Made by a program: the position numbers and the translations under genes. Below, piece by piece: positions 3,521-21,014 of a stretch of 64,000 nucleotides of DNA. Numbering within the stretch: the stretch's first letter is position 1; every line of letters starts with the position of its first letter. Below the pieces are notes generated by a model. That model had not been told where the DNA came from, searched no databases, and saw only the letters and a program-made list of their open reading frames with translations. The DNA is from Larkinella soli (GTDB lineage Bacteria; Bacteroidota; Bacteroidia; Cytophagales; Spirosomataceae), in the NCBI RefSeq assembly GCF_003703975.1, contig NZ_QTJY01000002.1:558001-622000 (forward strand), in the 5' to 3' direction.

Positions 3521-3533
3521 AGGCCGGGGGTGG

Positions 3534-4940: not shown

Positions 4941-5603
4941 AAACGCGGGGGGTTAAGGTTGCTGAATGTGGGAACCCATCGAAGCATATACTTCACGGTA
5001 AGCCCGGAGGACCCCATTTATAGTTTGAATATTTTTACTCAGAATATGATTTTTTCACAAAATATAGCCATAAATGTAAATTATCTGAAAAAAGCGGTTG
5101 CATACTATTCAAATTTCTACTTTACTTTGTCTTGCGATTTAGTAGAATATAATCGCAGAAATTCCCCGAAATCTTTGTTAACCACCAGCAGAGAAGTCGG
5201 GTCAAGGTCCCACGTTTTCATTCAAGACAATGAAAAGCAAGTTTACGTTGTATTCGTCATCCGCCCGGATGGCCCCGGTGGTTGTATCTCATTTCCAATC
5301 GGTTGATTCTTTCCCGGTAGGTCTCCTCCGCTGTTGTCGCTGCTGTTGCTGACGCAGCCGGCATCTTTTTTTCCGATCCGACTTTCGGTTTACCTGACCG
5401 CACCCCGATAGGCAGGCTCCCCGGGCCTTCCTGAATTTTCGGTGGTTGATGATTCTGTCGGCCCACGGGCCTGCCTATCAGTGTGCCGTCCGGTAATTTA
5501 CTACGCTCTGAAGCGATAATCGTACCCCTCAAGATAGCACGTTACCCGCTATTTCGGTACGAACCATCCTGATCACTTTTAGAATACTTAATTGATAGAA
5601 TTT
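4941..5603. other. Divergent intergenic region before the SusC operon
   Basis: No convincing gene is seen in these 663 bases. The left two thirds are AT-rich and probably hold the promoters of the GH109-like gene (leftward) and the SusC operon (rightward). A -7-like TTACTTTG at 5122-5129 has a GTTG 21 bases upstream and could serve the operon, leaving a leader of about 470 bases. The right third contains an imperfect inverted repeat (5407-5479). Confidence 0.5.
5407..5479. repeat. Imperfect inverted repeat in the SusC leader region
   Basis: The left arm begins GATAGGCAGGC (5407) and ends CGGGCC (5427). The right arm runs GGCCCACG then GGCCTGCCTATC (5460-5479). The two arms of about 20 bases can pair with a few mismatches around a loop of roughly 32 bases. 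The word GGCCTGCCTATC occurs again near 39230, so it may be a dispersed repeat, a terminator or an attenuator. Confidence 0.4.
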
Positions 5604-8600
5604 ATGTATTTAAGCAGGCGTACCTTCTACTGGCTGACCTTGCTGTTCATCGGATTATCCCCTTCCCTGCTCGCCCAGACCGATTCGCCTACCCTCCTGG
5701 GGAAGGTCACGGACCGGAGCGGAGAGGCTCTGCCGGGGGTCAACATCCGCATCAAAGGCACCACCCGCGGCACGACGACCGACTCCGACGGCTCGTTCCG
5801 CCTGACGCTTTCCGACCGGAAAACTCCGATCGTTTTCTCCTACATTGGTTATAAAACGCAGGAAATCGCGGTCGGCAACGCGTCGACGCTGGCGATCCAG
5901 CTCGACGCCGACCAGCGGCAGCTCAACGAAGTCGTCGTGGTGGGTTACGGCACCCAGGAGCGCAAGAACCTGATCGGCTCCATCGCCAAGATCGACCCGG
6001 CCGAAACCCGCGGCATCCCGGCGGGCAGCTTCGACGCCCAGTTGCAGGGCAAGGTGCCGGGCGTCCAGATCAGCTCCAATACCGGCGTTCCGGGCGAAGC
6101 GGTCAACATCCGGGTGCGGGGCGCCACCTCCATCAACGCCGATAACGATCCGCTGTATGTCGTCGACGGGGTTTTTATCAACAGCAACAGCCTCCAGACC
6201 GTCAGCACCGGCGGGAAGGCCAGCTCACCCATCTCCGACATCAACCCCTCCGACATCGAGAGCATCGAGGTTCTGAAAGACGCCGAAGCCACCGCCCTCT
6301 ACGGCTCACGGGGCGCCAACGGGGTCATCCTGATCACGACCAAGCGGGGTAGCTACAACCAGAAATCCAAACTGAACTTCAACGTCTCGCACGGCCTCGC
6401 CAAAGCCGCCAAACTCTGGGACCTGACCACCGGGCCGCAGCACGCTCAGCTCGTCAACGAATGGTGGATCAATACCGGCAAGGACGACCCCAGCCTGAAA
6501 CGCACCGAAGCCAACCGCCCCTTCCGGCCGGTTTCGGAAGGCGGACGCGGCCTGCCCGAAGAACAGCAGACCTACGACCGTCTGGGCGAACTGTTCCGGA
6601 CGGCCCATCTCCAAAATTACGATCTCTCCCTGACGGGCGGCTCCAAATCGACCAAATACTACATCGGCGGGGGCTATAACCGCCAGGAAGCCATCATCCG
6701 GCCCATCCGGTTCGAGCGGGCCAGCTTCAAGGTCAACCTCGACCAGCAGGTGAACGACAGGATTCAGGTCGGCGTCAGCAACACCTTCACCCGGACGTTC
6801 CGGAACCAGGCCCGGGCGGGCGACGGCCCCGCGGGCGGTTTGCTCCAGGCGGCACTCCACACCCCCACCTACCTCTCGCCCGTCAACGAACAGGGCGTGC
6901 CGGTGGGCCGCGCGGGCTTCGACAATCTGACGCTGCTGATCAACAATTACGACGTCAACTCGACCAGCCTCCGCTATATCGGAAATCTCTACGCCGACGT
7001 GCAGCTTTCACCGAGCCTGCGCTTCCGCTCCAGCTGGGGGATCGATTACAACAACTACGACGAGTCGGAATACTGGAACAACCTGCTCATCGCGGGCAGT
7101 CCGGGCGGTCTGGCCACGTCCAGCATCAGCCAGTTCACGACCTGGCTCAACGAGCAGACGCTCTCCTACCGGAAAAAGATCGGCGGAAACCATACGATCG
7201 GCGTCCTGGTCGGGAACACGCTTCAGGCCGACGTCCTGACCCGCACCTACGCCGAAGGCCGGGGCTTCGCCAACAACGCCTTCACGCAGATTTCGTCGGC
7301 GGCCACCACGGCGGCCACCCAGAGCTGGTCGAAAAGCACGCTGGCCTCGTTCTTCTCGCGCGTCGACTACAACTACGCCGGTAAATACCTCCTCGACTTC
7401 AGCATCCGGGCCGACGGTTCGTCGCGCTTCGGGAGCCGGAACAAGTGGGGCTACTTTCCGGCCGTCGGGGCTGCCTGGCGCATCAAGCAGGAGAATTTCC
7501 TGAAAGATGTTCAGGCCATCAGCGACCTGAAACTGCGGGCCAGCGCCGGAACCACCGGGAACCAGAACGGCATCGGCAACTTCGCGGCCCAGGGCCTCTG
7601 GACCGGCGGAGCGCCCTACCAGGGCAGCCCGGGCATCGCGCCCCAGCAGCTTTCCAACCCCGACCTCCAGTGGGAACGCACCAACCAGATCAATGCCGGG
7701 GTGGACCTGGGGCTGTTCAACGGACGGCTGGGTGTGGAGTTCAACGTCTACCGCAAGGTGACGACCAACGGTCTGCTTCAACTCAACCTGGCCGGAACTA
7801 CCGGTTTCAGCAGCTACTGGAGCAACGCGGCCGAAATCAGCAACAAGGGCTTCGAGCTGACGATCAACTCCGACAACATCCGGCGCGGTGACTTCACCTG
7901 GACCACCAGCTTCAACGTGGCCCAGAACAGGAATAAGATCGAGAAGCTCGCCAACCCGCTCCGCTACGGCAGCCGCGACCTCATCCTCCAGCAGCAGGGT
8001 AACCCGCTATATTCCTTCTGGGTATATAAGCAGCTGTACGTCAATCCCGAAACCGGCAACGTGGTGTATGAGGACGTGAACAAAGACGGCAAAATCACGA
8101 CCGACGACCGGCAGATTCTGGGCAGCATCTGGCCCAAATTCTTCGGCGGGATTACCAACAACTTCACCTACCGGGGCTTCGATCTGGGCGTCTTCTTCGC
8201 CTTCCAGTACGGCAACAAGGTTTACAACCACAACAAATTCTTCGGCGAAGGCGGGGGCGCCCGCGATGCGGCCCGGGTTATTCTGGCCAGCAACCTCGCC
8301 CGCTGGCAGAAACCCGGCGACGTCACCGACGTGCCCCGGCCGGACGGTGTGAACGTCAACAACTACCGCGACGGCGGCAGCCGCTGGCTGGAAGACGGCT
8401 CGTTCCTGCGCCTGCGTTCCCTGAACCTGGGGTACACGATCCCGAAAGCGGTAACGGCCCGGCTGAAGATCGAAACCGTTCGGGTGTATTTCTCGGGCAA
8501 CAACCTGCTCCTGCTCACCAACTACTCCGGTCTGGACCCCGAATCGAGCGCCAGCAGCGACCAGAACCAGCAGGGCATCGACCTCGGCACACCCCCGCAG

Positions 8601-8639
8601 CCCCGCAGCTTCCAGTTGGGCCTTAACGTAACGCTTTAA
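5604..8639 (+). CDS. SusC/RagA-family TonB-linked outer-membrane transporter
   Basis: The product of 1011 residues is an outer-membrane, TonB-dependent importer that pairs with the SusD lipoprotein encoded next. A signal peptide (about 1-25, ending LLAQ) is followed by a carboxypeptidase-regulatory-like beta-sandwich (about 30-110), the SusC signature LNEVVVVGYGTQ, a plug domain and a C-terminal beta-barrel. ATG 5604 is preferred over an in-frame TTG at 5592 because it directly opens the signal peptide. It is the first gene of the long rightward block that contains a sulfite dehydrogenase and sulfate-type transporters, so its ligand may be a sulfur compound rather than a glycan; that is inference. 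Confidence 0.93.
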   Translation: MYLSRRTFYWLTLLFIGLSPSLLAQTDSPTLLGKVTDRSGEALPGVNIRIKGTTRGTTTDSDGSFRLTLSDRKTPIVFSYIGYKTQEIAVGNASTLAIQLDADQRQLNEVVVVGYGTQERKNLIGSIAKIDPAETRGIPAGSFDAQLQGKVPGVQISSNTGVPGEAVNIRVRGATSINADNDPLYVVDGVFINSNSLQTVSTGGKASSPISDINPSDIESIEVLKDAEATALYGSRGANGVILITTKRGSYNQKSKLNFNVSHGLAKAAKLWDLTTGPQHAQLVNEWWINTGKDDPSLKRTEANRPFRPVSEGGRGLPEEQQTYDRLGELFRTAHLQNYDLSLTGGSKSTKYYIGGGYNRQEAIIRPIRFERASFKVNLDQQVNDRIQVGVSNTFTRTFRNQARAGDGPAGGLLQAALHTPTYLSPVNEQGVPVGRAGFDNLTLLINNYDVNSTSLRYIGNLYADVQLSPSLRFRSSWGIDYNNYDESEYWNNLLIAGSPGGLATSSISQFTTWLNEQTLSYRKKIGGNHTIGVLVGNTLQADVLTRTYAEGRGFANNAFTQISSAATTAATQSWSKSTLASFFSRVDYNYAGKYLLDFSIRADGSSRFGSRNKWGYFPAVGAAWRIKQENFLKDVQAISDLKLRASAGTTGNQNGIGNFAAQGLWTGGAPYQGSPGIAPQQLSNPDLQWERTNQINAGVDLGLFNGRLGVEFNVYRKVTTNGLLQLNLAGTTGFSSYWSNAAEISNKGFELTINSDNIRRGDFTWTTSFNVAQNRNKIEKLANPLRYGSRDLILQQQGNPLYSFWVYKQLYVNPETGNVVYEDVNKDGKITTDDRQILGSIWPKFFGGITNNFTYRGFDLGVFFAFQYGNKVYNHNKFFGEGGGARDAARVILASNLARWQKPGDVTDVPRPDGVNVNNYRDGGSRWLEDGSFLRLRSLNLGYTIPKAVTARLKIETVRVYFSGNNLLLLTNYSGLDPESSASSDQNQQGIDLGTPPQPRSFQLGLNVTL

Positions 8640-8650
8640 GCAGTAAAATC

Positions 8651-9994
8651 ATGAAGTTGATTCGCCATATCATTCCCGTTTTTGCGCTGACCGCCCTGGT
8701 TTCCTGCAAAGACTTTCTGGACGTCAGGCCGCTGGAGTCCATCTCCGACGACCTGACCATCGTCGACAAGGCTTCGGCCGAAACCGCCGTGCGCGGGATT
8801 TACAGCGCCCTCGGCAACAGCAGTTATTACGGCACCGGCTTTCAGTCGATCGGTTACCTCTCGGGCGACAACGTCCAGTGGACCGGCTCGCAGTCGCAGG
8901 TACAGGAGTTCATCAACCACAAGGTCAACGCCGACAACTCGACCATCGGCGGAGCCTGGACGGCCATCTACCGCACCATCAACCGGGCCAACAACGTCAT
9001 CGACAAGGTACCGGCGGTGACCGACCCGACCCTGACGCAGGTGTTGAAAGACCAGTATGTGGGGGAAGCCTACTTCCTGCGGGCGCTGTCGTATTTCGAC
9101 CTGGCCCGGACCTGGGGCGGGGTGCCGCTGATCACCAGACCGACGCTGACACCGTCGGATAATTCGGGCGTCAAACGCAGCACCCAGGCCGAAACCTACG
9201 CGCAGGTGCTGAAGGACCTCGATGCCGCCGAACCGCTGCTCCCGCTGACCACCGACCGCTTCCGGGCCACCCGGAAAACCGTCTGGGCGCTGAAATCCCG
9301 CTACTACCTCTACCAGAAGAACTGGGTCAAAGCGGAGGAATATGCCGACAAGCTCCTCACCGACGCGACGAACTACAGCCTCCTGAAGCCCTACAGCGCC
9401 TTCTTCGCCAACGATGCCCGCGGCACGCGGGAATCGGTTTTCGAAATCTTCTATAACGGGACCACCGAGGTGAACTCCCACCGGGGCCAGTGGCAGCCGC
9501 AGACCAACGGCGGCACGCGCCAGTGGGCACCCAACGACGCCTTCGTGGCCCTCGTGAACGACCCGGCCGTGGGCGGCAACCGCAGCACGCTGGTCGCCAA
9601 AGACAACCAGAACCGCTGGTACGGCAACCTGTATTACCGCAACCCGGCCTCCGACCCGACCTTCGTCATCCGGACCGCCGAGTTGTACCTGATCCGGGCC
9701 GAAGCCCGCGCCCAGCTCGGCAAACTCACCGAAGGGCTGGCCGACCTGAACGCCGTCCGCGACCGGGCCGGACTGACGGCCGCCAAAGCCGCCACCGCAG
9801 CCGACCTGCTGCTCGCCATCGAGAACGAACGCCGGATCGAGTTCGCCCTGGAGCCGCACCGCTGGTTCGACCTGGTCCGGACGGGCCGGGCCGCAGCCGT
9901 GCTGGGCGTCACCGACCCGAACCGCTACCTCCTGCCGATCCCGGTCGATCAGCTGCTGACGGACAAGTCGCTGGAACAGAATCCGGGGTATTGA
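8651..9994 (+). CDS. RagB/SusD-family nutrient-uptake outer-membrane lipoprotein
   Basis: This 447-residue lipoprotein starts 11 bases after SusC. Its signal peptide ends in a lipobox (LVSC, Cys19), so it should be anchored in the outer membrane. The start CKDFLDVRPLES, a helical TPR-like core with the typical GEAYFLRALSYFDLARTWGGVPL segment, and the C-terminal ERRIEFALEPHRWFDLVRTGR are hallmarks of SusD proteins. With SusC it forms the lid-and-barrel import complex. The family call is secure; the ligand is unknown. Confidence 0.93.
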   Translation: MKLIRHIIPVFALTALVSCKDFLDVRPLESISDDLTIVDKASAETAVRGIYSALGNSSYYGTGFQSIGYLSGDNVQWTGSQSQVQEFINHKVNADNSTIGGAWTAIYRTINRANNVIDKVPAVTDPTLTQVLKDQYVGEAYFLRALSYFDLARTWGGVPLITRPTLTPSDNSGVKRSTQAETYAQVLKDLDAAEPLLPLTTDRFRATRKTVWALKSRYYLYQKNWVKAEEYADKLLTDATNYSLLKPYSAFFANDARGTRESVFEIFYNGTTEVNSHRGQWQPQTNGGTRQWAPNDAFVALVNDPAVGGNRSTLVAKDNQNRWYGNLYYRNPASDPTFVIRTAELYLIRAEARAQLGKLTEGLADLNAVRDRAGLTAAKAATAADLLLAIENERRIEFALEPHRWFDLVRTGRAAAVLGVTDPNRYLLPIPVDQLLTDKSLEQNPGY

Positions 9995-9998
9995 AATA

Positions 9999-10102
9999 AC
10001 CACCCCCCGGCCCCCTCCTAAAACAGGAGGGGGTGGCTTCGCAGGTTTTTAAATTTAGCGGAGCACTCCCCCTCCTTACCAAGGAGGGGGCCGGGGGGTG
10101 GT
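9999..10102. repeat. GC-rich palindromic intergenic element, copy A (long form)
   Basis: The element is bounded by inverted ends, ACCACCCCCCGGCCCCC on the left and its complement on the right. Inside are two smaller hairpins made of CCCCCTCC/GGAGGGGG arms, separated by an AT-rich spacer. It begins 5 bases after the SusD stop and ends 23 bases before the next ATG. A near-identical long copy is at 46056-46158 and a short one at 13848-13894. It encodes nothing and resembles a REP/MITE-like element. Confidence 0.9.
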
Positions 10103-10124
10103 CCTCACCTTAAAACCGACATCC

Positions 10125-11543
10125 ATGAGCAACATTCCCATCACCGCCACCCTGGCCGAGCGCCGGGAAGCCACGGGCCCCTACGGGACGGCAGTCGCCG
10201 GAACGAAAGCCGCCGGGCCGGAACAGCCGGAATGGAACGGCATCGAGAAAGCCGTCTTCCGCGTCGCCTTCCTCTATTTTGTGCTCCAGGCCGTTCCGCT
10301 CGACTGGAAGTTCTACCGCGACCTGTTCTCCGTCAACTGGGCGGCCGTTTCCTATGGTGATATTTTTCACCTGACGCGCTACCAGCCCCGGTTTTTCGGA
10401 GAAGAGGACACTTTCGCCAACTGGGCGGTTCTACTGGGCATTGCGGTGGTGGGCGCCTTCCTCTGGGGCAGCCGCGACCGCAACCGGAAGAATTACGACA
10501 CCGCCTGGTACGGGCTGCGGGTCATCCTGCGCTACCGGCTGGCGGTGGCCCTGCTCGGCTACGGTTTTCTGAAACTGTTCCCGGTACTGGCCCCAGAGCC
10601 GTCGATCAGTAACCTGAACACCAATTACGGTGACTTCACGGACTGGAAAATCTTCTCGATGAGCCTCGGCATCGTGCCGTCCTACGAATCGTTTCTGGGG
10701 CTGGTCGAAATTATCGGTGCGCTGCTCCTGCTGAACCGAAAAACCGCTTCGATCGGCGCGTTTCTGATCCTGTCGTTTCTGGGCAACGTGTTCATGTCGA
10801 ATCTGGCCTATGAGGGCGGGGAATACGTCTACAGCTTTTACCTGATCACGATGGCGCTGGTGCTGCTGGCCTTCGACGCCCTGCGCATCTACCACCTCCT
10901 GACGCTCGAACGCCCGACCGCTCCGAACCGCTTCCGTCCGGTCTTTCAGGGTCGGCTGAAACCGTTGCGGCCGGCGCTGAAGGCGGCTTTCGTGCTGTTC
11001 TTCGTCGGTTTTTACGGTTATAAGGTCTACGCCGGTTACCGGGAAGGAACCTACCAGTTTCCGCAGAAACCGGGTCTGGCCGATGCCGCCGGGCTGTATA
11101 ACGTCAGCGAGTTCCGCATCAACGGGCAGACGCTCCCCTACTCCCTTACCGACCCGGTTCGCTGGCAGGATGTGGTTTTCGAGAAATGGGCCACGATCAG
11201 CATCCGTTCCAACCGCCCCGTCACCCTCGACCGCACGAACGTCGAGGTAATTCACCGCAACGATGCCGACCGCAATTACGAGTATGCAGGCTCGGCCGGA
11301 CGGCAATACTACGCCTACGACATCGACCCGCAGCAGTCGGTGCTGACGCTGGAAAACCGCAACCGAAACCAGCCGGCCGAACGCCTGACGCTCCGGTTCA
11401 GCCGCCCGAATCCGAACACGATCATCCTGGAAGGCACCGACGACCGCCGGAACACGATCTATGCGGTATTGCAGAAAACCGACAAGAAATACCTTCTGGA
11501 CGAAGCCCGGAAAACCGGCCGGCGCAATGGCCTGAAACTGTAA
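10125..11543 (+). CDS. DoxX-like multi-pass membrane protein with extracytoplasmic C-terminal domain (paralog 1)
   Basis: The 472-residue protein has a hydrophobic N-terminal two thirds with several membrane segments and the DoxX-type sequence LGYGFLKLFPV near residue 150. A polar C-terminal domain after about residue 310 contains YNVSEFRINGQTLPYS and RWQDVVFEKW. It resembles the DoxX/DoxD family, whose best-known members are the thiosulfate:quinone oxidoreductase subunits DoxD/DoxA. ATG 10125 is chosen because the earlier in-frame GTG (10098) lies inside the palindromic element. It is followed after 21 bases by a clear paralog. A redox role in sulfur metabolism is suggested by context only. 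Confidence 0.75.
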   Translation: MSNIPITATLAERREATGPYGTAVAGTKAAGPEQPEWNGIEKAVFRVAFLYFVLQAVPLDWKFYRDLFSVNWAAVSYGDIFHLTRYQPRFFGEEDTFANWAVLLGIAVVGAFLWGSRDRNRKNYDTAWYGLRVILRYRLAVALLGYGFLKLFPVLAPEPSISNLNTNYGDFTDWKIFSMSLGIVPSYESFLGLVEIIGALLLLNRKTASIGAFLILSFLGNVFMSNLAYEGGEYVYSFYLITMALVLLAFDALRIYHLLTLERPTAPNRFRPVFQGRLKPLRPALKAAFVLFFVGFYGYKVYAGYREGTYQFPQKPGLADAAGLYNVSEFRINGQTLPYSLTDPVRWQDVVFEKWATISIRSNRPVTLDRTNVEVIHRNDADRNYEYAGSAGRQYYAYDIDPQQSVLTLENRNRNQPAERLTLRFSRPNPNTIILEGTDDRRNTIYAVLQKTDKKYLLDEARKTGRRNGLKL

Positions 11544-11564
11544 CCTTATCCCAACTGATCCGTC

Positions 11565-13208
11565 ATGGCTATTCAAAAACATACGTCCGACGCCCCCGTG
11601 CTGGAGTCGGTCCCGGTCGCCGAACCGCAGCCGGCCGTGGAAAGCCGCCCGGCCGAATCCCGGTCCTGGACACCCGCGCAGCGGTTCTGGTTCCGCGTCG
11701 CCTTCATCTTCTTTACGGTATTCAGCATACCGACGACGCTCGACTGGTATGCCAACGTCCTGAGCTTCGACTGGCTGCACCTGCACTACCGCGACCTCTA
11801 CGAAATCGCCCGGTTTTCGCCCAGCCTGCTCCGGTATTTCGGTGTCGAGCGCGGGGGCGGTGGTGAAGGGGGCGGCCGCAGCCCGCTGCTCGGCTACGAA
11901 GACTGGTTCGTCCTGCTCGGTATTGCCCTCGTGGGGGCCGTCATCTGGACCGCCCTCGACCGCAAACGCCGGGAATACGACATTCTGTACTACTGGCTCC
12001 GGACCATCGTGCGGTATCGGGCCGGAATCGGCATCATCGGCTTCGGCTTCACCAAACTGTTCCCGACGCAGATGCCGTATCCCTCGGAGGGCCTGCTGAA
12101 CACGGATTTCGGCGATTTCACGGCCCAGAAAATTTTCTGGATGTCGGTCGGGATCGTGCCCTGGTACCAGGTGTTCACCGGTTTCGTCGAGATTCTGGCG
12201 GGCGCCATGCTGTTCTTCCGGGGCACGACCACCATCGGTGCGGCTCTTCTTTTCGGGGCGCTGGGCGACATCGTGTTCGTCAACTTCGCCTACGACGGCG
12301 GGGTTCACGTCTACAGTTCCTATTTTGTTCTGATGGCGCTGTTCCTGATGATCTACGATGCCCGCCGGGTCTATAACCTCCTGGTTCTGGAGCGGTTCAC
12401 GGTGCCGATTCACTTCTACCCCGACTTCTCGAAGGGCTGGCTGAAATACCTCCGCATCGGGCTGAAAACCGCCACCATCGCCATTTTTCTGGTCTGGTTC
12501 ACCTGGCTGGAATACATCAACTTCAATTTCGATCCGTATAAGCAGCCGGCCATGAAAGGCGTTACGGCCCTGCGCGGCCTGTACAACGTAACGGAGTTTC
12601 GCCTGAACAACAAAGTGATTCCGTACTCACCGACCGATACCGTGCGCTGGCAGAGCGCGACCTTCGAGAAATGGTCGAGCCTGACCTTCAAAGTCAACAA
12701 ACCGACCCGGCTCGACCTCTCCAACGGGGGTGGCGCGCCCATGCGCGACCTGAACCGGACGTTCGAGGTGTCGGGCGTCGCGGGCGGCCGGCGGGTGTTT
12801 TACTACGACGCCGATACGGTGGATCAGGTGCTGTATCTCCAGGACAAGATCCGGAAGAACAACCGCGCCACCGTCGACGGGAAGGAGATCGCAGCCGGAA
12901 ATGCCCGGAAAAACCGGGAGAAACCCGAAGCGGACCAATGGATTCCGAAGGTGGCCCTGGCCCGCATCGGCAGTGAGGTGACCCGCATCGACCCGCGCGG
13001 TTACACCACCCGCCGGGAGCGCGGCATCGCCGAAGAAACCCGGCCGGTGAAACGCAACCGCATGATCCTGAAATACAGCACCACCGACGGCTCCCGCGTC
13101 ATCCTGACCGGAGTCGACGAACGGAAGGATTCCATTTATGTCGTCCTGGACCGCGTCAACCGGAAGTACGCGCTTTCGGAGAGCAGCCTCCAGGCCGGGA
13201 AGTATTGA
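11565..13208 (+). CDS. DoxX-like multi-pass membrane protein with extracytoplasmic C-terminal domain (paralog 2)
   Basis: At 547 residues this is a longer paralog of the preceding gene. The two share the DoxX-type core (GFGFTKLFP here), the tail motif YNVTEFRLNNKVIPYSPTDT, and FEKW followed by a beta-rich end. It differs by an insertion of about 60 charged residues in the C-terminal domain (roughly 430-490) and by a Gly/Glu-rich stretch near residue 95. It ends 3 bases before the cytochrome gene, so the two are almost certainly cotranscribed. The tandem pair may form a heterodimeric membrane complex; its activity is unknown. Confidence 0.75.
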   Translation: MAIQKHTSDAPVLESVPVAEPQPAVESRPAESRSWTPAQRFWFRVAFIFFTVFSIPTTLDWYANVLSFDWLHLHYRDLYEIARFSPSLLRYFGVERGGGGEGGGRSPLLGYEDWFVLLGIALVGAVIWTALDRKRREYDILYYWLRTIVRYRAGIGIIGFGFTKLFPTQMPYPSEGLLNTDFGDFTAQKIFWMSVGIVPWYQVFTGFVEILAGAMLFFRGTTTIGAALLFGALGDIVFVNFAYDGGVHVYSSYFVLMALFLMIYDARRVYNLLVLERFTVPIHFYPDFSKGWLKYLRIGLKTATIAIFLVWFTWLEYINFNFDPYKQPAMKGVTALRGLYNVTEFRLNNKVIPYSPTDTVRWQSATFEKWSSLTFKVNKPTRLDLSNGGGAPMRDLNRTFEVSGVAGGRRVFYYDADTVDQVLYLQDKIRKNNRATVDGKEIAAGNARKNREKPEADQWIPKVALARIGSEVTRIDPRGYTTRRERGIAEETRPVKRNRMILKYSTTDGSRVILTGVDERKDSIYVVLDRVNRKYALSESSLQAGKY

Positions 13209-13211
13209 CCC

Positions 13212-13838
13212 ATGAGCGAAAAAACCACCTTTTCGATTCAGCAATCATTGGGATTGGGTCTGGCGGGTTTTCTGCTGCTGTACACGTTGCAGGCGTGTTA
13301 TCGAGCCAACGGCGGAGACCTGCCCGACCGGTCCCATACCAACAGGAGCCAGGCCGGGGACACCCTCGGCCACCCCTCCCGCTTCGGCTTCGGCCGACCG
13401 GCCACGGCCCGGGAAATTGCCGTTCTGGACATCGATGTCCGGCCCGACGGTCTGGGACTGCCGTCCGGGTCGGGCACGGTGCCGGCCGGGAAGGGACTGT
13501 TTTCGGCCCGATGCGCGGCTTGTCATGGGGTCGACGGCACGGGCGGCACCGGCGGGCGGCTGGTCGTCACCGCCTTCACGGCGAAGGAGAAGGCCATCGG
13601 CAATTACTGGCCTTACGCCACCACCCTTTTCGACTATATCCGCCGGGCCATGCCCTACAACGCGCCCGGCTCCCTCACCAGTGATGAGGTCTACAGCCTG
13701 ACCGCTTACCTGCTCCACGCCAATCGCCTGCTCGACTCCACCGCCGTCCTGAATGCCCGATCCCTGCCCAAAGTGGTCATGCCCGCCCGGAAATTTTTCG
13801 TCCCCGACGACCGCCGGGGTGGCCCGGAAGTGCGGTAG
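13212..13838 (+). CDS. SoxD/SorB-like monoheme cytochrome c lipoprotein
   Basis: This 208-residue protein has a membrane leader ending in a lipobox (LQAC, Cys29) and one heme-binding CAACH motif (residues 101-105). The C-terminal segment RRAMPYNAPGSLTSDEVYSLTAYLLHAN holds the likely distal Met ligand and closely resembles the tail of SoxD, the cytochrome partner of sulfur dehydrogenase SoxC. Its gene lies just before the SoxC-type gene, so it is the obvious electron acceptor for sulfite oxidation at the periplasmic face of a membrane. The cytochrome call is secure; the partner assignment is inferred from similarity and order. Confidence 0.88.
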   Translation: MSEKTTFSIQQSLGLGLAGFLLLYTLQACYRANGGDLPDRSHTNRSQAGDTLGHPSRFGFGRPATAREIAVLDIDVRPDGLGLPSGSGTVPAGKGLFSARCAACHGVDGTGGTGGRLVVTAFTAKEKAIGNYWPYATTLFDYIRRAMPYNAPGSLTSDEVYSLTAYLLHANRLLDSTAVLNARSLPKVVMPARKFFVPDDRRGGPEVR

Positions 13839-13847
13839 CTGGTGCAT

Positions 13848-13894
13848 ACCACCCCCCGGCCCCCTCCTGTTTTAGGAGGGGGCCGGGGGGTGGT
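13848..13894. repeat. GC-rich palindromic intergenic element, copy B (short form)
   Basis: A perfect 21-bp stem (left arm starting ACCACCCCCCGG, right arm ending CCGGGGGGTGGT) closes on a 5-base loop. It consists only of the outer arms of the long copies. It lies between the cytochrome and SoxC-type genes, so it may act as a transcript stabiliser or attenuator within the operon. Confidence 0.9.
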
Positions 13895-13941
13895 CAGGCC
13901 GGGGCAAGCTGTTTGGGATATAGAAAACGAAATCTTAAACC

Positions 13942-15177
13942 ATGGCATTAAATCCCAAAATAAACCGACGTACCCTGCTGGGCGGGGCCGCTACGGCCGC
14001 GGTGGCGATTGCACACACCTCGGTGGCGAAGGCCGTTCAGGTCGGTATTTCGGAGAAGGAACTCCGGGCCGACGACCCGACGAAAGCGCCCGGCCCACTG
14101 CCCGGCGAGCGCGGCACCCGGTCGCCGTTCGAGAAGGCGGTGAAGAAACCGTCGGATATTTCTTCGCGTACCCCCCTGCAGGACCTGTACGGCATCATCA
14201 CCCCTTCGGACCTGCATTTTGAGCGCCACCACGCCGGTATACCCGCCCTCGACCCCGCCAAATACGAACTGGTTATTCACGGCATGGTGGACCGCCCGCT
14301 GGTGTTTACCCTGGCGGACCTGAAGCGGTTTCCGTCGGTGTCACGCATCTGTTTTCTGGAATGTTCGGGCAACTACCGGGGTCGCGGCACCAACGAAAAG
14401 CTGTCTCCGCAGGACATCTGCGGCCTCACCAGCCAGAGCGAGTGGACCGGCGTCATGCTCTCGACCCTCTTCCGGGAAGTGGGCGTCCAGCCCAAAGCCT
14501 CCTGGTTTCTGGCCGAAGGTACCGATGCGGCCGTCATGACCCGCAGCGTGCCGGTGGCGAAAGGCTGGGACGACGCCATGATCGTCTACGCCCAGAACGG
14601 CGAGGCCCTCCGGCCCGAACAGGGCTACCCCGCCCGGCTGTTTCTGCCCGGCTGGGAAGGCAACGCCAGCGTCAAGTGGCTCCGGCGCATCGAACTGTCC
14701 GACCAGCCGTTCATGACGCGGGAGGAAACGTCCAAATACACCGAGCCGATCAAAGACGGCAAAATCCGGCAGTTCAGCTTCACCATCGATGCCCGCTCGA
14801 TCATCACTTACCCCACCTATCCGGCGCAGGTGCAGAAAGGCTGGATCGAAATCCGGGGCCTCGCCTGGAGCGGCCGGGGGCGGGTTACGAAGGTGGAGGT
14901 CAGTACCGACAACGGGAAAAGCTGGCAAACCGCCCGACTGCAGGACCCCGTGCTGGACAAGGCCCATACGCAGTTCCGGCACCTCTGGCCCTGGGACGGC
15001 CGGGAAACCGTGATTATGAGCCGCGTGACCGACCAGACCGGCTATGTCCAGCCTACCCTCGCCGAGCTGCTGGCCGCCCGGGGGGAAGACACCGGCGGTT
15101 ACCACCTGAACCCAATCGCAGCCTGGCGCATCCGCCCCGACGGGCAGGTGTTGTTTCGTCCCGAAAACTGGAAATGA
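13942..15177 (+). CDS. soxC: SoxC-type molybdenum sulfite dehydrogenase
   Basis: The 411-residue protein carries a twin-arginine-like leader (INRRTLLGGAATAAVAIAH) and should be exported folded with its molybdopterin cofactor. The Mo-binding region includes the cysteine in CFLECSGN (about residues 136-143), followed by GLTSQSEWTGV as in SoxC. The dimerisation domain follows (about 280-385). Enzymes of this family oxidise sulfite, or protein-bound sulfane sulfur, to sulfate and pass electrons to a cytochrome c, here probably the SoxD-like lipoprotein upstream. No SoxXYZ, SoxA or SoxB is present in the window, so free sulfite is the more likely substrate. Its stop overlaps the next start by 4 bases. 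Confidence 0.87.
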   Translation: MALNPKINRRTLLGGAATAAVAIAHTSVAKAVQVGISEKELRADDPTKAPGPLPGERGTRSPFEKAVKKPSDISSRTPLQDLYGIITPSDLHFERHHAGIPALDPAKYELVIHGMVDRPLVFTLADLKRFPSVSRICFLECSGNYRGRGTNEKLSPQDICGLTSQSEWTGVMLSTLFREVGVQPKASWFLAEGTDAAVMTRSVPVAKGWDDAMIVYAQNGEALRPEQGYPARLFLPGWEGNASVKWLRRIELSDQPFMTREETSKYTEPIKDGKIRQFSFTIDARSIITYPTYPAQVQKGWIEIRGLAWSGRGRVTKVEVSTDNGKSWQTARLQDPVLDKAHTQFRHLWPWDGRETVIMSRVTDQTGYVQPTLAELLAARGEDTGGYHLNPIAAWRIRPDGQVLFRPENWK

Positions 15178-16628
15178 ATTTGAAAACCGCGTCTCATACC
15201 GATTTTGATGCCGTCGTCGTCGGTTCCGGGCCGAACGGGCTGGCCGCTGCCGTTACGTTGCAGCAGGAGGGCCTGTCGGTGCTGCTGGTGGAGGGGAAAG
15301 ACACCATCGGCGGGGGGCTGCGGTCGGCGGAGCTGACGCTGCCCGGTTTTGTCCACGACATCTGCTCGGCCATTCATCCGCTCGCCGTCGGATCGCCTTT
15401 CCTCCAGTCGCTGCCGCTGGGGGAACACGGCCTCGAATATATTTTCCCGCCCGTGGCGGCCGCCCACCCGCTCGACGACGGCACGGCCGCGGCCCTCTGC
15501 CATAATCTGGAGCAAACCGCCTTCCGACTGGGCGCGGACGCCGACGCGTATCGTTCGCTGATCGAGCCGCTGGTCGGGGTCTGGCCCGCCATCGATACCG
15601 ACGTGCTGGGGCCGCTGACGTTCCCGAAACACCCCATCGACTTTGCCCGGTTTGGGTTGAAAGCCCTGCCTCCGGCTGCGCTGCTGGCCCGGCTTTTCAG
15701 GACGAAAGAAGCGCGGGGCCTGTGGGCCGGGATGGCCGCCCACTCCATCCAGCCGCTCTCCAATCTGGCCACCTCCGCCATCGGGCTGGTGCTGATGGTG
15801 GCGGCTCACCGGCGTGGGTGGCCCCTTCCAAAAGGCGGCTCTCAGCAGATTTCCAACGCCCTGGCTTCGTACTTCCGGTCGCTGGGCGGGAAGATCGAAA
15901 CCGGTTTCCACGTCGGAAATCTCGCGCAGCTCCCCTCCGCCCGGGCGGTTCTGTTCGATCTGACGCCCCGGCAACTGCTGGAAATTGCCGGACACCGGTT
16001 TTCGTGGGTATACCGCCGGCAGCTGAACCGGTATCGCCACGGCATGGGCGTCTTTAAAATGGATTGGGCGCTGGACGGCCCCGTTCCCTTCACGGCCGAA
16101 GCCGCCCGGCAGGCCGGCACGGTTCACCTCGGCAACACGCTGGAAGAGATTGCGGCTTCGGAGCAGGCGACCTGGAACGGCGCCCACCCCGATCGGCCCT
16201 TCGTGCTGCTGGCCCAGCAGAGCCTCTTCGACCCGACCCGCGCGCCCGAAGGCAAACACACCCTCTGGGGGTACTGCCATGTTCCGAACGGTTCGCGGGT
16301 GGATATGACCGAAGCCATCGAGCGGCAGATCGAGCGGTTTGCACCCGGCTTTCGGGACCGCATTCTGGCCCGGCATACCCTAAATACCGAACAGATGGAG
16401 GCCCACAACCCCAACTACATCGGGGGCGACATCAACGGGGGCGTCATCGACCTGGCGCAGCTGTTCACCCGGCCCGCCCTGCGGTGGTCGCCCTACCGGA
16501 CATCGGCGAAGGGGCTGTATCTCTGTTCCTCCTCCACTCCGCCGGGCGCGGGCGTCCACGGCATGTGCGGCTTCCACGCGGCCCGACAGGCGCTGAAAGA
16601 CGAGTTCTCAACCGAAATCCAGCTATGA
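15174..16628 (+). CDS. FAD-dependent oxidoreductase, phytoene-desaturase-like
   Basis: This 484-residue flavoprotein opens with a Rossmann dinucleotide-binding motif (VVGSGPNGLAAAV, about residues 13-25) and the second FAD motif GGGLRSAELT, and ends with a C-terminal FAD-binding segment around PPGAGVHGMCG. This layout belongs to the CrtI/COG1233 amine-oxidase-like group. No signal peptide is seen, so it is cytoplasmic. The ATG at 15174 overlaps the SoxC stop in an ATGA arrangement, which points to translational coupling. Its substrate is unknown; the context suggests oxidation of the carbon skeleton of the compound handled by the operon. Confidence 0.8.
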   Translation: MNLKTASHTDFDAVVVGSGPNGLAAAVTLQQEGLSVLLVEGKDTIGGGLRSAELTLPGFVHDICSAIHPLAVGSPFLQSLPLGEHGLEYIFPPVAAAHPLDDGTAAALCHNLEQTAFRLGADADAYRSLIEPLVGVWPAIDTDVLGPLTFPKHPIDFARFGLKALPPAALLARLFRTKEARGLWAGMAAHSIQPLSNLATSAIGLVLMVAAHRRGWPLPKGGSQQISNALASYFRSLGGKIETGFHVGNLAQLPSARAVLFDLTPRQLLEIAGHRFSWVYRRQLNRYRHGMGVFKMDWALDGPVPFTAEAARQAGTVHLGNTLEEIAASEQATWNGAHPDRPFVLLAQQSLFDPTRAPEGKHTLWGYCHVPNGSRVDMTEAIERQIERFAPGFRDRILARHTLNTEQMEAHNPNYIGGDINGGVIDLAQLFTRPALRWSPYRTSAKGLYLCSSSTPPGAGVHGMCGFHAARQALKDEFSTEIQL

Positions 16629-17551
16629 AAAAAGCCCGTTTGACCCTGCTGCTGGCCGTCTGTCTGGCCGCTTTCCGGCTGTCGGCCCAGACCCCGGCCA
16701 ACCCGCTCTGGCACGAACAGAAGGTAAAGAATTACCTGCCCCACATGACGGTGCCCGAGGTCCGCGAGCTGCTGACCCGGACCGATATGGTCATCATTCC
16801 CATCGCGGCTCTCGAACAGCACGGCCTGCACCTGCCCATCGGCACCGACTACCTGAACGGCGTGGAGCGGGCCAAGCTGGTGGCGCAGAAAACCGACGTA
16901 CTGGTGGCCCCGGTGCTGCTCGTCGGGCAGTCGCCCTACCACATGGAGTTTCCCGGCACCATCTCGCTGTCGGCGGAAACCATCGTGAAGGTGCATCTGG
17001 AAGCCGTGCAGTCGCTGCTTCAGCATGGTTTCAAGCGGTTTCTGATCCTGAACGCCCACGGCGGTAACAAGGCCATCTGTACGTATCTCGTCGATCGCAT
17101 TAACCAGGAAACCGCCGGCATCGCCGTCGAACTGGCCGAAGCCGTAGCCCCCTTCCGGACACCCTCCACCCTGCCGAAGGGCAAAGAGAAAGTCTTCGAC
17201 CGGCACGCGGGCGTGAGTGAAACCTCGTCGTCGCTCTACCTCATTCCGAATCTGGTCCGGATGGATCAGGCCGAAACTGCCCGCCTGTTCATGCCGAAAC
17301 ATATGGAAGCCATGGTGCCGGAGGTGCTGGACGGCGACCCGACGGCCAACCTGGTCTTTCTGGCGGAGGGGCTGAAGGCCAAACAGACCGGCAAAAAAAC
17401 GTCGGCGGCCGAGATGTCGACCACCGGCGTCTGGGGCATCGGCGACCTGAAAGCCGCATCGGCCGAGCGGGGCCGCGACGAAGCGGAACGATTTGTGGAT
17501 GCGGCCGTAAAATTCATCGAAAAATGGAAATCACTTCGTCCCAAAAACTGA
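16625..17551 (+). CDS. Exported creatininase-family amidohydrolase
   Basis: The 308-residue protein has a signal peptide (cleavage after LSAQ, about residue 22), unusual for this mainly cytoplasmic family. The creatininase metal-binding motifs are present: LEQHGLHLPIGTD (about residues 62-74) and NAHGGN (about 147). Family members are metal-dependent hydrolases opening cyclic or linear amides such as creatinine. The start overlaps the previous stop (ATGA). In this block it might cleave an amide or lactam in the periplasm to release the sulfur-bearing part. Family call firm, substrate unknown. Confidence 0.83.
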   Translation: MKKARLTLLLAVCLAAFRLSAQTPANPLWHEQKVKNYLPHMTVPEVRELLTRTDMVIIPIAALEQHGLHLPIGTDYLNGVERAKLVAQKTDVLVAPVLLVGQSPYHMEFPGTISLSAETIVKVHLEAVQSLLQHGFKRFLILNAHGGNKAICTYLVDRINQETAGIAVELAEAVAPFRTPSTLPKGKEKVFDRHAGVSETSSSLYLIPNLVRMDQAETARLFMPKHMEAMVPEVLDGDPTANLVFLAEGLKAKQTGKKTSAAEMSTTGVWGIGDLKAASAERGRDEAERFVDAAVKFIEKWKSLRPKN

Positions 17552-19008
17552 GCGGAACGGCCGAAAAAAGTCGCGACTGGTTCTCCTACGGCCCCCTGCT
17601 GCTCGGGCCGCTGGTATTTGGGGGACTGGCCTTTTCGGGGCTGGTCCCGCTCGAACACCGGCTGCAGCTGGTGCTGGGCGTGGCCGGCTGGATTATGGTC
17701 TGGTGGATTACCGAAGCCGTTCCGATGCCGGTAACGGCTTTTCTGCCGCTGGTGCTGTTTCCGTCGCTGGGCATCCTCGACCTGAACACGACGGCGGCTA
17801 ACTATACCAACCCGACGGTGCTGCTGTTTCTGTCGGGGTTCATCTTCGCCCTGGCGATGGAGCAGCACCGGCTCCACGTCCGGATTGCGCTACACATCGT
17901 CCGGCGGGTCGGCACGGCCAGCCACCGGCTCGTACTGGGCTTCATGACGGCCACGGCCTTCGTCAGCATGTGGGTGAACAACACGGCGGCCGCCCTGCTG
18001 ATGCTGCCCATCGCCGGCTCGGTGATGACGCTCATGGAAGAAGACTTTTCCCGGCTGGGCGGCCGGCAGGCTTACCGCAACTTTTCAAAAAGTATGCTGC
18101 TTGGGCTGGCTTATGCCGCCAGCATCGGAGGTATCGCCACCTCCATCGGCACGCCGACCAACGCGGTGCTGGTCGGGTATCTGCGCGAGCTGTACCGGAT
18201 CGATCTGTCGTTTTCAGGCTGGTTCATCGTCGGCTTTCCGCTGGCGGTGCTGATGCTGACGGCGGCTTACTTCATTCTGACAAAGCTGCTGTTCCGGGTC
18301 AGGATGGAGGCCATCCCGGATGCGTCCGACATCATCGCCCGCAAGATCGAGGCCCTGGGGCCGGTGACCTACCAGGAATACGCCGTCAGTGTGCTGTTCA
18401 GCCTGACGGCGGCCGGCTGGATTTTCCGAACGGTGCTGGCCGAATGGCTGGGAGCCGGGTTTCTGAACGATACCATCATCGGAATGTCGGGCGCCCTGCT
18501 GCTGTTCATCCTCCCCGACCGCAAGGCCCGCAGCGGGCTGCTGTTCGACTGGACCGCGATGGCGAAGCTGCCCTGGGGCATTCTGTTCATCATCGGCGGC
18601 GGGCTGGCCTTAGCCAAAACCCTTGAAAGTTCGGGCCTCATCAAACTGATCGGGGAAACGGTCGCGGCCTCCGGAAGTCACAACCCGTGGTATCTGCTGA
18701 CGGCGCTCACCGGGGTCACGCTGCTCCTGAAGCTGATCATCGCCAATACCGCCCTGGCCACCGTCGCCCTACCGATGGCGTTCGGAATTGCCGATGCGCT
18801 GGGTCTGCCGCCGATCGTGCTGGCGGCTCCCGTCACCTTTGCCGCCAGTTTCGCCTTCGTGCTGCCCATGTCCACCCCGCCCAACGCCATCGTCCTGACC
18901 ACGGGCCAGGTGACCGTTCGGGACATGATCCGGGCCGGGCTGCCGCTCACCGCAGTCGGCTTCCTGCTGCTGATTGCAGCCGCAAAAATTTACCAATCAA
19001 TGGTTTAA
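17524..19008 (+). CDS. SLC13/DASS-family sodium:anion symporter
   Basis: This 494-residue protein has about 11-12 membrane segments and the two halves typical of divalent-anion:sodium symporters, with SNT-like signatures WVNNTAAALLMLPIA (about 150) and ANTALATVALPMA (about 415). Relatives carry sulfate, succinate or other dicarboxylates. ATG 17524 lies inside the end of the creatininase gene (28-base overlap), consistent with coupled translation. Next to a sulfite dehydrogenase, sulfate, sulfonate or a dicarboxylate product are candidates. Confidence 0.86.
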   Translation: MEITSSQKLSGTAEKSRDWFSYGPLLLGPLVFGGLAFSGLVPLEHRLQLVLGVAGWIMVWWITEAVPMPVTAFLPLVLFPSLGILDLNTTAANYTNPTVLLFLSGFIFALAMEQHRLHVRIALHIVRRVGTASHRLVLGFMTATAFVSMWVNNTAAALLMLPIAGSVMTLMEEDFSRLGGRQAYRNFSKSMLLGLAYAASIGGIATSIGTPTNAVLVGYLRELYRIDLSFSGWFIVGFPLAVLMLTAAYFILTKLLFRVRMEAIPDASDIIARKIEALGPVTYQEYAVSVLFSLTAAGWIFRTVLAEWLGAGFLNDTIIGMSGALLLFILPDRKARSGLLFDWTAMAKLPWGILFIIGGGLALAKTLESSGLIKLIGETVAASGSHNPWYLLTALTGVTLLLKLIIANTALATVALPMAFGIADALGLPPIVLAAPVTFAASFAFVLPMSTPPNAIVLTTGQVTVRDMIRAGLPLTAVGFLLLIAAAKIYQSMV

Positions 19009-19035
19009 CCCTTTACTAATTAGTCGCTTAACCTC

Positions 19036-20316
19036 ATGGCAACTCAAACCGTAACCCCATCGTCCACCGAAAAGCCGGCCGTTACCCTGCCCGAAGACTG
19101 GGCGGTGGTCGGGCTTGGTTTCCTGATCATCGTGCTGGCCCTGACGGGTCTTCAGGTACCGTCGCCGGCGTTCGGCTGGAGCACCGGCGCCGACCTGACC
19201 GGCAAGGTGTTTGCAGCCGGCAACCTGACGCTGATCGCTCTCCAGTTCGTGTTCGTTTATGCGGTCGCCCTGCTGGGTGCCCTGCTGACCGGAAAGCCGC
19301 TGAGGGCGTTTCTGGCCGGGTTTCCGATCCTCTATCTGCTGACGCTCGTGGCGCTGATTCTGGCGGGCAACAGCCGGGTGAAGACCCTGAATCTCGAAGC
19401 CGTGATCTTCAGCCTGTCCATCGGCTTGCTCATCGGCAACCTGTTCCGGCTGCCCGACTGGCTGCGGCCGGCGCTGGCGACGGAGTTGTTCGTCAAGATC
19501 GGGCTGGTGCTGCTGGGTGCGGGCGTCATCTTCTCCGACATCCTCAAGGCCGGTTCGCTCGGGCTCATTCAGGCGCTGGTGGTCGTCGTGTCGGTCTGGT
19601 ATTTTGCCTACTGGATCTGTAAGAAACTGAAGATCGACGACGAGCTGACCATGATGATCTCCAGCGCGGTATCCATCTGCGGGGTGTCGGCGGCCATCGC
19701 CACCTCGGGCGCCATTCACGGCGACTCGAAGAAGCTCTCCTACGTCATTTCCCTGGTCCTGATCACGGCCATTCCGATGATGATCGCCATGCCGTATGTG
19801 GCGCAGGCCCTGGGCTTATCGCAGGAGGTGACGGGCGCCTGGCTCGGCGGCAGCATCGACACCACCGGGGCCGTGGTGGCTTCCGGCACACTGGTCGGAG
19901 AAACCGCATTGAAGATCAGCACCATCGTCAAGTTCGCGCAGAACGTGCTGCTCGGGCTGGCGGCTTTCGCCATCAGCCTCTACTGGACCTACACGAAATC
20001 CGCCCCCGGCGGCCAAACCGAAAAACCGACGCTGCGGGTGATCTGGGAGCGGTTTCCGAAATTTGTGATCGGGTTTATAGCCGCTTCGGTGCTGTTCTCC
20101 TTTTTCCTCAGCCCGGCCGCCGTCGACAGCGTCAAAGCCGGCCTGAAAAACGTTCAGGGCCTCTGGTTCGCGCTGGCGTTTACAAGCATCGGGCTGGAAA
20201 CCCGCTTCTCGGACCTCTTCAATCAGGACAGCCGAAAACCGCTGTATGCTTTCCTGACGGCCCAGGCGTTCAACATCCTCATTACGCTGGTAATTGCTTA
20301 TTCCCTGTTCGGATAG
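19036..20316 (+). CDS. YeiH-family putative sulfate exporter (UPF0324)
   Basis: The 426-residue integral membrane protein has about 10 hydrophobic segments. It shows the YeiH/PSE family features LLGAGVIFSDI, SAVSICGVSAAIATSGAI and GGSIDTTGAVVASG. Relatives are found with taurine or sulfite metabolism genes and are annotated as sulfate exporters, though direct proof of transport is scarce. It is the last gene of the rightward block, 27 bases after the SLC13 gene, and fits a role in removing sulfate or sulfite made by the SoxC-type enzyme. Confidence 0.85.
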   Translation: MATQTVTPSSTEKPAVTLPEDWAVVGLGFLIIVLALTGLQVPSPAFGWSTGADLTGKVFAAGNLTLIALQFVFVYAVALLGALLTGKPLRAFLAGFPILYLLTLVALILAGNSRVKTLNLEAVIFSLSIGLLIGNLFRLPDWLRPALATELFVKIGLVLLGAGVIFSDILKAGSLGLIQALVVVVSVWYFAYWICKKLKIDDELTMMISSAVSICGVSAAIATSGAIHGDSKKLSYVISLVLITAIPMMIAMPYVAQALGLSQEVTGAWLGGSIDTTGAVVASGTLVGETALKISTIVKFAQNVLLGLAAFAISLYWTYTKSAPGGQTEKPTLRVIWERFPKFVIGFIAASVLFSFFLSPAAVDSVKAGLKNVQGLWFALAFTSIGLETRFSDLFNQDSRKPLYAFLTAQAFNILITLVIAYSLFG

Positions 20317-20324
20317 GCTCCGGG

Positions 20325-21014
20325 TCAGAGGGGGCGAAACGACCAGTTGTGCAGGGTCACTTTTCCCTCTCCGGCATAATTGTTGAAAAACAGGAGGCTG
20401 ATCCGCCGGGTGGCATTGGAGCCCTGGGAGTAGATTTCGATGTTCTCATCGGGGAATCCGTCTTCGCACTCGTAGGCCGGCTCGTTCATGTCGTCGACAA
20501 ACACTTTGGTCAGCAGGCCGAGGCTAGGCCGGTTCTGCATCAGAATCCGGACGGTATGTCGCTGCCCGTCGAAGAGAGTGGGCAGGGACCTGCTGGAAAT
20601 GATTCGGGAGGAGGCATGGCCGATATTGTACAGATTGAACCCCATGGACGCGCTGATTCCGTACGGATTGTACAACGACTCATCCTTCGTAAATAGCCGG
20701 ATCTGGAGGTAGCCCTCCTGAGTGCCCTGAAACGTAAAGGCGGTTTCGAAGCCGTCCTTTACGTCGAAATTGAAGTTCGACCCGAACTCGGCTTCCTGCC
20801 CCGGCCCCTTGTAACCCATTTCGATGGCCGGGCCTTTGGCCTGGACATTTTTTTTAATATCGAAACCGGAAGTTCGGCGGAAATCTTCTACGGTAAACCC
20901 GGTTTCCGATACCACGCTGCCCGGGTCTACGGGTGGGTCATCGCGTTTGGACTTGCATTGAGCCAGGAGAAGGACGAAGAGGAGACAATAAAAAGGAGTA
21001 AACGTTTTTACCAT
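20325..21014 (-). CDS. Lipoprotein, possibly with a lectin-like beta-sandwich domain
   Basis: The 229-residue protein starts at ATG 21014 (an upstream in-frame TTG is less likely) and has a signal peptide with lipobox LLAQC (Cys near 21). The body is rich in beta-strands and aromatic residues. It ends VTLHNWSF, which together with FETAFTFQ and DGQRHTVRI recalls L-type lectin or concanavalin-like folds. No catalytic motif is visible. It converges with the sulfur block, whose last stop is 8 bases away. Function unknown. Confidence 0.65.
   Translation of the reverse strand: MVKTFTPFYCLLFVLLLAQCKSKRDDPPVDPGSVVSETGFTVEDFRRTSGFDIKKNVQAKGPAIEMGYKGPGQEAEFGSNFNFDVKDGFETAFTFQGTQEGYLQIRLFTKDESLYNPYGISASMGFNLYNIGHASSRIISSRSLPTLFDGQRHTVRILMQNRPSLGLLTKVFVDDMNEPAYECEDGFPDENIEIYSQGSNATRRISLLFFNNYAGEGKVTLHNWSFRPL

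Follow-up and report, generated by a model that had tools for sequence, protein, structure and literature searches.

We analysed a 64,000-nucleotide (nt) stretch of the genome of Larkinella soli (contig NZ_QTJY01000002.1, positions 558,001–622,000; hereafter the window, numbered from its first letter), which comes from a 6.9 Mb assembly over 82 contigs. Ten consecutive open reading frames (ORFs) on its + strand, at 5604–20316, begin with a SusC/SusD outer-membrane import pair and include a SoxC-type sulfite dehydrogenase, and a small ORF ending in a run of Cys codons lies ahead of them. We consider here whether this gene set is a candidate operon for the acquisition of organic sulfur.

Gene content of the locus

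A preceding sequence-only reading of this DNA had described ten co-directional genes with short gaps or overlaps, and this arrangement is present as described, with intergenic gaps of −28 to +103 nt and 4-nt overlaps at the starts of both the flavin adenine dinucleotide (FAD) oxidoreductase gene and the creatininase-family gene. The leader ORF at 5230–5352 was missing from its gene list. The downstream neighbour is a convergent ORF on the − strand (20325–21020), and a search of the whole window against Rfam at the gathering threshold returned nothing but one tRNA. The features of the region are as follows.

5098–5132, + strand: candidate promoter of the Bacteroidota type (TTG, 22 nt, TACTTTG) inside TTTACTTTGTCT, a sequence block found near leaders
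5230–5352, + strand: leader peptide ORF of 40 residues, C-terminus LLRCCRCCC-stop, proposed to sense cysteine
5328–5372, + strand: terminator-like hairpin that includes the final Cys codons, followed by TTTTTTT
5390–5496, + strand: inverted repeat, long but imperfect (arms of 28 nt, 86%), in the interval from leader to SusC
5604–8639, + strand: SusC/RagA outer-membrane TonB-dependent transporter (family matches, clade membership)
8651–9994, + strand: SusD lipoprotein (family match)
10098–11543, + strand: Dox1, core membrane protein, recognized by conservation
11565–13208, + strand: Dox2, core multi-helix membrane protein with a C-terminal beta domain (model mean pLDDT 72)
13212–13838, + strand: monoheme cytochrome c (CytC), probably a lipoprotein (LQAC, judged by eye)
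13942–15177, + strand: SoxC-type molybdenum sulfite dehydrogenase with a Tat-type signal and invariant Cys141
15174–16628, + strand: FAD oxidoreductase of the amine oxidase/carotenoid desaturase superfamily, by eye without a signal peptide
16625–17551, + strand: creatininase-family hydrolase, by eye with a signal peptide; no counterpart found in the loci of relatives
17524–19008, + strand: SLC13/DASS sodium-coupled anion symporter, rare among relatives
19036–20316, + strand: YeiH/SuyZ-type exporter (PF03601), probably for sulfite

Protein families were assigned via Pfam and NCBIfam, and signal peptides were judged by eye. SusC scores 873 bits against TIGR04056, above the cut-off, and the SusD gene adjoins it; the same databases also back the SusD, cytochrome c, creatininase-family, DASS/SLC13 and PF03601/YeiH assignments. 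The SoxC protein scores 491.5 bits against TIGR04555 (curated cut-off 420), and its best solved relative is the sulfite dehydrogenase 2xts (E = 2.5e-93), which we take to be Paracoccus SoxCD. Both a Tat-type RR motif (R9 R10) and Cys141, presumably the ligand of the molybdenum site, are invariant in an alignment of 18 SoxC sequences.

The names SusC, SusD, SoxC, creatininase family, SLC13 and YeiH given by the sequence-only reading are thus retained, whereas two of its labels are not. The cytochrome, described there as SoxD-like, has a single CXXCH heme motif; SoxD carries two hemes, and the SoxD label is therefore not supported. Neither Dox1 nor Dox2, described as DoxX-like, reaches any Pfam family at E = 0.001. 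Weak matches among 24 Dox homologues were most often to MauE (10 members, best E = 0.011) and in one member to DoxX (0.035), so that naming these proteins DoxX/DoxD or thiosulfate:quinone oxidoreductase is unsupported. No Foldseek match to the Dox2 model reached E = 0.001; the best of the weak ones were vitamin K-dependent carboxylases, from which we draw no function. The FAD oxidoreductase keeps its name at the superfamily level and gains nothing narrower: amine oxidases and carotenoid desaturases, at 13–18% identity, appear among the 50 structural matches listed for its model, a spread too wide to name a substrate. Against its broad family, YeiH scores 174 bits (PF03601, cut-off 24.5), and against the narrower TIGR00698 it scores 90 bits, below the cut-off of 232.6. 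Similarly, the creatininase-family protein matches the Pfam family alone, scoring 103.5 bits against the model for true creatininase (TIGR04448, cut-off 235).

Conservation of the gene set

In a set of 200 genomes of the family, SoxC (E up to 1e-60) was found in 63, distributed over 12 of 36 genera, and the nearest relative with the locus is Larkinella humicola (G091, NZ_VTWS01000004.1; SoxC identity 83%). We read up to 20 kb around the 63 SoxC matches besides the window and clustered the proteins of the resulting 64 loci. CytC was present in 62 of them, Dox in 57, SusD in 48, SusC in 47 and FAD in 40, followed by peptidase S51 (18), YeiH (11), an Rrf2 regulator (8), SLC13 (6) and an MsuD-kind monooxygenase (6); SoxC itself was counted in 63 of 64 because the mechanical caller missed the copy in the window. 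A second scan covered named genomes (the best 80 of 465 relatives, about half of them members of the family surveyed above), with each of six core proteins called at no less than 45% identity. The whole core, SusC-SusD-Dox1-Dox2-CytC-SoxC, was present in 66 of the 80 named loci, while FAD was found in 60, YeiH in 31 and S51 in 16; several stretches in these surveys stop at contig ends, which lowers the counts.

By our assignment of orders, the named loci include Cytophagales, Chitinophagales, Sphingobacteriales and one Flavobacterium, and they show several gene orders: CytC-SoxC-SusC-SusD-Dox1-Dox2-FAD in several Chitinophaga, and SusC through Dox2 followed by FAD-YeiH-CytC-SoxC in several Mucilaginibacter. 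That the content stays constant while the order shifts between these genera and Cytophagales argues for a functional association beyond inherited order alone. The sequence-only reading had proposed a single system with its own SusCD, which would fail if SusCD did not stay beside SoxC in relatives; the pair does stay, through reshuffled gene orders. The creatininase gene does not: no relative has it at the cut-offs used, whether among the 63 family stretches or among the 80 named ones, so that amide hydrolysis by this enzyme, put forward as a step of the pathway, drops out of the core. SLC13 was likewise found in 0 of the 80 named loci at the cut-off used.

Some loci depart from the general picture. 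Two loci that are SoxC-negative at the cut-off (L251 and L252, in genomes G018 and G044) read SusC-SusD-S51-Dox1-Dox2-APC-FAD-YeiH and keep the exporter without the dehydrogenase. SoxC, SusD, Dox2 and FAD are each in pieces in locus L111 (G072), through decay or sequencing error. A contig titled Williamsia sp. MAG (Actinomycetota; L182) carries a SusCD-SoxC operon typical of Bacteroidota, and its bin or label therefore looks wrong.

A SusC clade associated with SoxC

Each genome of the family encodes roughly 25 to 190 SusC candidates, of which we scored the four best (E at most 1e-280), so that weaker copies are possible. Identity of at least 73% to the SusC of the window was seen for 50 matches in 50 of the 200 genomes, all of them SoxC-positive, and 42 of these copies lie within 15 kb of SoxC and 48 within 40 kb. 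A further 19 genomes have SusC at 55–58%, and 12 of these are SoxC-positive. In a tree of 59 SusC proteins from chosen loci, built by a quick method with a midpoint root and with long branches flagged, 45 group in one clade with an SH-aLRT support of 100, and the second SusC type encoded in these operons falls outside it.

Cysteine-rich leaders

The leader ORF of 40 codons lies between the promoter-like block and SusC. In the window it is the sole intergenic ATG ORF of 6–70 codons whose final eight residues include no fewer than three Cys; the only other Cys-rich ORF of this kind falls inside a long ORF. A genome-wide scan for Cys-Cys-Cys-TAA/TGA endings, the only endings covered, gave 50 sites, every one of which was inspected, and the leader alone is a small ATG ORF outside ORFs of at least 150 codons. 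No NCBIfam family matches the peptide; it has, however, the two sequence hallmarks of a cysteine leader, several Cys codons in a row next to the stop and a position ahead of a sulfur operon. The region from 5230 to 5604 folds better than its own shuffles (z = −4.7).

Leaders in relatives were scored by this definition of a Cys-rich ATG ORF up to 700 nt from SusC, with expectations taken from shuffles. The family count took SusC genes with at least 650 nt upstream, and the other count took loci from outside Spirosomataceae with upstream stretches of at least 500 nt. Cys-rich leaders precede SusC in 18 of the 70 scored relatives (0.6 expected). The 44 orthologous loci of the family account for 7 of these (0.35 expected) and the 26 loci from beyond it for 11 (0.27 expected). 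Other SusC genes within the family loci have one in 2 of 19 cases (0.075 expected). The background was taken from these 63 loci, where such a leader stands before 8 of 414 other genes and before none of 309 genes inside operons; the difference has a Fisher P of 6e-11 when kin rows are treated as independent. Two of the eight background rows are a single leader before DUF4395-PhyH-SusC (L064/L263), and another is the second leader of L. humicola described below. Leader sequences are similar among close relatives, and distant ones share little besides the Cys run.

Of 21 leaders, 6 (a count without shuffle control) have the block TTTACTTTGTCT 54–123 nt ahead of them, namely those of the window, L049, L088, L091, L102 and L206. 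A loose TA(N)NTTTG match lies up to 200 nt ahead of 18 of the 21 (a raw count with no control set). A GTTGAT motif downstream of the leader was discarded, being present in some leader loci only. By eye, the leader of L049 is likewise trailed by a repeat that resembles the inverted repeat at 5390–5496. Larkinella humicola has a second polycysteine leader (L261, 561–677; end SSCCCCCL), with a SusCD-sulfatase-sulfatase-FGE operon under it (813–10032) that is divergent from the adjoining core operon. In genome G186, a short way past the FAD gene, a Cys-rich small ORF (L262, 3155–3241; end VCRCCC) is followed by genes for a fatty acid hydroxylase and a DUF6134 protein.

Sulfur enzymes near the clade

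Two genomes that are SoxC-negative at the 1e-60 cut (G085 and G104) have a clade SusC heading an operon of SusD, DUF1684, a thiol dioxygenase, a protein with four rhodanese domains and an MFS carrier. The closest solved relatives of this dioxygenase are 4qma (E = 1.7e-75) and the 3-mercaptopropionate dioxygenase 3uss (5.3e-70), and, at E of at most 1e-30, these are the only two of the 200 genomes that encode it, in both cases in the clade-SusC operon. A second cassette, SusC2-SusD2-amidohydrolase-monooxygenase-APC permease, adjoins CytC-SoxC in some genomes and lies elsewhere in others; its monooxygenase is closest to the methanesulfonate sulfonatase 7olf (E = 4.5e-126). MsuD-like monooxygenases of at least 74% identity, mostly inside this cassette, occur in 11 genomes, all 11 of them SoxC-positive (P = 1.6e-6, with the cut chosen after a gap in the list had been seen). 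Together with the 2xts-like SoxC, the 7olf-like monooxygenase and the thiol dioxygenase and rhodanese found with clade SusC bear out the claim that the locus is surrounded by sulfur chemistry. Two slots appear to be filled variously, the hydrolase slot by creatininase in the window and by S51, amidohydrolase or M19 in some relatives, and the carrier slot by SLC13 in the window and by APC or MFS elsewhere.

Proposed function and alternatives

From the gene content, its conservation, the SusC clade and the enrichment of leaders, we infer the reactions, substrate and regulation as follows: the ten genes would form one operon for organosulfur acquisition that is controlled by cysteine, and sulfite would be exported before its oxidation in the periplasm, a reading to which we assign a probability of about 0.6. 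At low cysteine, ribosomes would stall on the Cys codons of the leader and the operon would be expressed; attenuation is the candidate mode of this control, as judged from the sequence. Judging from its neighbouring genes, SusCD would import a sulfur-containing organic compound through the outer membrane, for which a sulfonate, a thiol or a sulfur-containing peptide are candidates. The periplasmic hydrolase may trim this compound, and the inner-membrane carrier would bring the product into the cytoplasm, where flavin chemistry might release sulfite, through either the FAD enzyme or an MsuD-like monooxygenase encoded elsewhere. YeiH would send excess sulfite out, and SoxC with the monoheme cytochrome would oxidize it to sulfate, with Dox1 and Dox2 as regular partners that perhaps connect to the quinone pool. 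The Tat-type motif of SoxC and the LQAC lipobox of the cytochrome indicate that oxidation should be periplasmic, so that YeiH would export sulfite to SoxC. This reverses the order proposed by the sequence-only reading, in which oxidation came first and sulfate was exported.

Several observations weigh against this interpretation. Within the genus, SoxC is present in four of nine genomes and the full operon in two of nine; two of the four SoxC genomes (L104 and L106) have CytC-SoxC without SusCD or Dox in 20 kb. SusC at 55–58% identity also occurs in seven SoxC-negative genomes, and since the loci are related, none of the counts represents independent events. A leader is absent at 52 of the 70 scored relatives (37 of 44 in the family and 15 of 26 others), and nine scored loci with CytC first or with SusC outside the stretch have none. 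A terminator-like site lies after or across the end of 7 of 21 leaders, compared with ∼3.4 expected from shuffles, so that intrinsic terminators are not shown as a general feature; the hairpin of the window, −12.8 kcal/mol over the 40 nt ahead of the T run, is within chance, as 0.38 of shuffles give one too. In genomes whose MsuD-like copies all fall below 74%, SoxC is no more frequent than by chance (12 of 40 positive, P = 0.66), and the copy in the L. soli genome (61%) is on another contig with no SusCD in 20 kb. Finally, a sulfur-starved cell is not obviously one that oxidizes and exports sulfite, and cysteine control and sulfite disposal fit together uneasily. This tension may be eased if the compound also serves as a carbon or nitrogen source, or if a carrier such as SLC13 takes sulfate back up.

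We considered three other explanations. The locus could be a unit for inorganic sulfur, with Dox1/Dox2 as a thiosulfate:quinone oxidoreductase, SoxC and the cytochrome as a sulfite or sulfane dehydrogenase, and SusCD as a passenger. The equivalog match of SoxC and the CytC-SoxC pairs of L104 and L106 fit this view, but we regard it as unlikely: the Dox proteins miss the DoxX/DoxD models, SusCD accompanies CytC-SoxC across rearrangements, and SoxY was found in 0 of the 63 SoxC genomes, a set in which no positive control matched, whereas the same search over the phylum, serving as positive control, found it in 35 of 296 genomes. A Sox sulfur-oxidizing system was rejected on these SoxY counts. 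SusCD pairs are known for the import of glycans and peptides, and the locus could accordingly be of that kind, with sulfite oxidation as a mere stress add-on; S51 and M19 peptidases do lie near some copies. This appears rather improbable, as the same SusC clade heads the thiol dioxygenase operon, Cys leaders stand ahead of SusC, and no glycoside hydrolase was seen among the annotated accessory proteins (genes of single loci mostly lay outside the annotation). Least credible is the linear pathway of the sequence-only reading, in which the creatininase cuts an amide, the FAD enzyme oxidizes the carbon part, sulfite is oxidized and YeiH exports sulfate: the gene content of the single window suits it, yet the creatininase gene was not found in the stretches of relatives at the cut-offs used, and the SoxC signal would place oxidation after export.

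Beyond the window, organosulfur import would extend to a distinct SusCD clade in Bacteroidota that is dedicated to thiols, sulfonates or sulfur-containing peptides and linked to the export of sulfite and its oxidation in the periplasm. Polycysteine leaders would act as its switch, within a sulfur-scavenging regulon that also takes in SusCD-sulfatase loci and represents cysteine attenuation outside Actinobacteria; we consider the chances of this wider proposal to be about even. If it is true, a SusCD clade tied to genes for sulfite dehydrogenase, thiol dioxygenase and sulfonate monooxygenase extends the role of SusCD to organic sulfur, which makes up more than 95% of the available sulfur in aerobic soils, according to the abstract of PMC3839906. 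With the Cys-rich leaders as a sequence marker, sulfur-regulated import loci in Bacteroidota could be recognized even where no substrate is known; the leaders also yield a regulatory prediction, that the operon would respond to cysteine.

Comparison with known systems

In the open-access library searched (subscription papers fell mostly outside its scope) we found no paper that joins SusC/SusD with sulfite dehydrogenase, and none that joins SusD, sulfonate, monooxygenase and TonB-dependent transport. The locus nevertheless shares parts with several described systems. It resembles SoxCD (2xts) and SorAB in the SoxC family, the conserved Cys, the Tat-type signal and the adjoining cytochrome c gene, and differs from them in the lack of SoxY in the genomes, the one-heme cytochrome and the SusCD and Dox1-Dox2 genes that head the operon. 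SusCD polysaccharide loci with sulfatases share the SusCD importer, and the Cys-led one of L. humicola lies back to back with the core operon; the operon of the window, in contrast, encodes a sulfite dehydrogenase but neither a sulfatase nor a glycoside hydrolase. Sulfonate dissimilation likewise pairs a PF03601 exporter with a periplasmic sulfite dehydrogenase, and SuyZ/YeiH exporters have been argued to pass sulfite outward for periplasmic oxidation (in the part of PMC11582611 cited here). Here, however, there is an outer-membrane step by SusCD, the core is without a known desulfonating enzyme, and only some genomes have the monooxygenase cassettes.

Polycysteine leader peptides of Actinobacteria (Canestrari et al., 2020, as cited in a passage of PMC13236596) are a close parallel to the leaders: in both cases a short ORF that closes with several Cys codons stands ahead of a sulfur operon. 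A passage of PMC1262725 reports that the actinobacterial cysteine leaders lack conserved terminators, which are likewise not shown for the leaders here. The actinobacterial leaders head cysteine biosynthesis, whereas those described here head SusCD import operons in Bacteroidota. Within the latter phylum, Flavobacterium psychrophilum has been described as having leader peptides ahead of amino-acid operons, and Bacteroides thetaiotaomicron as having small ORFs that resemble leaders (PMC9723704, PMC7366714), in passages that name neither cysteine leaders nor SusCD sulfur loci. Since these passages already propose attenuation in the phylum, the new element would be the combination of the cysteine run with SusCD sulfur loci.

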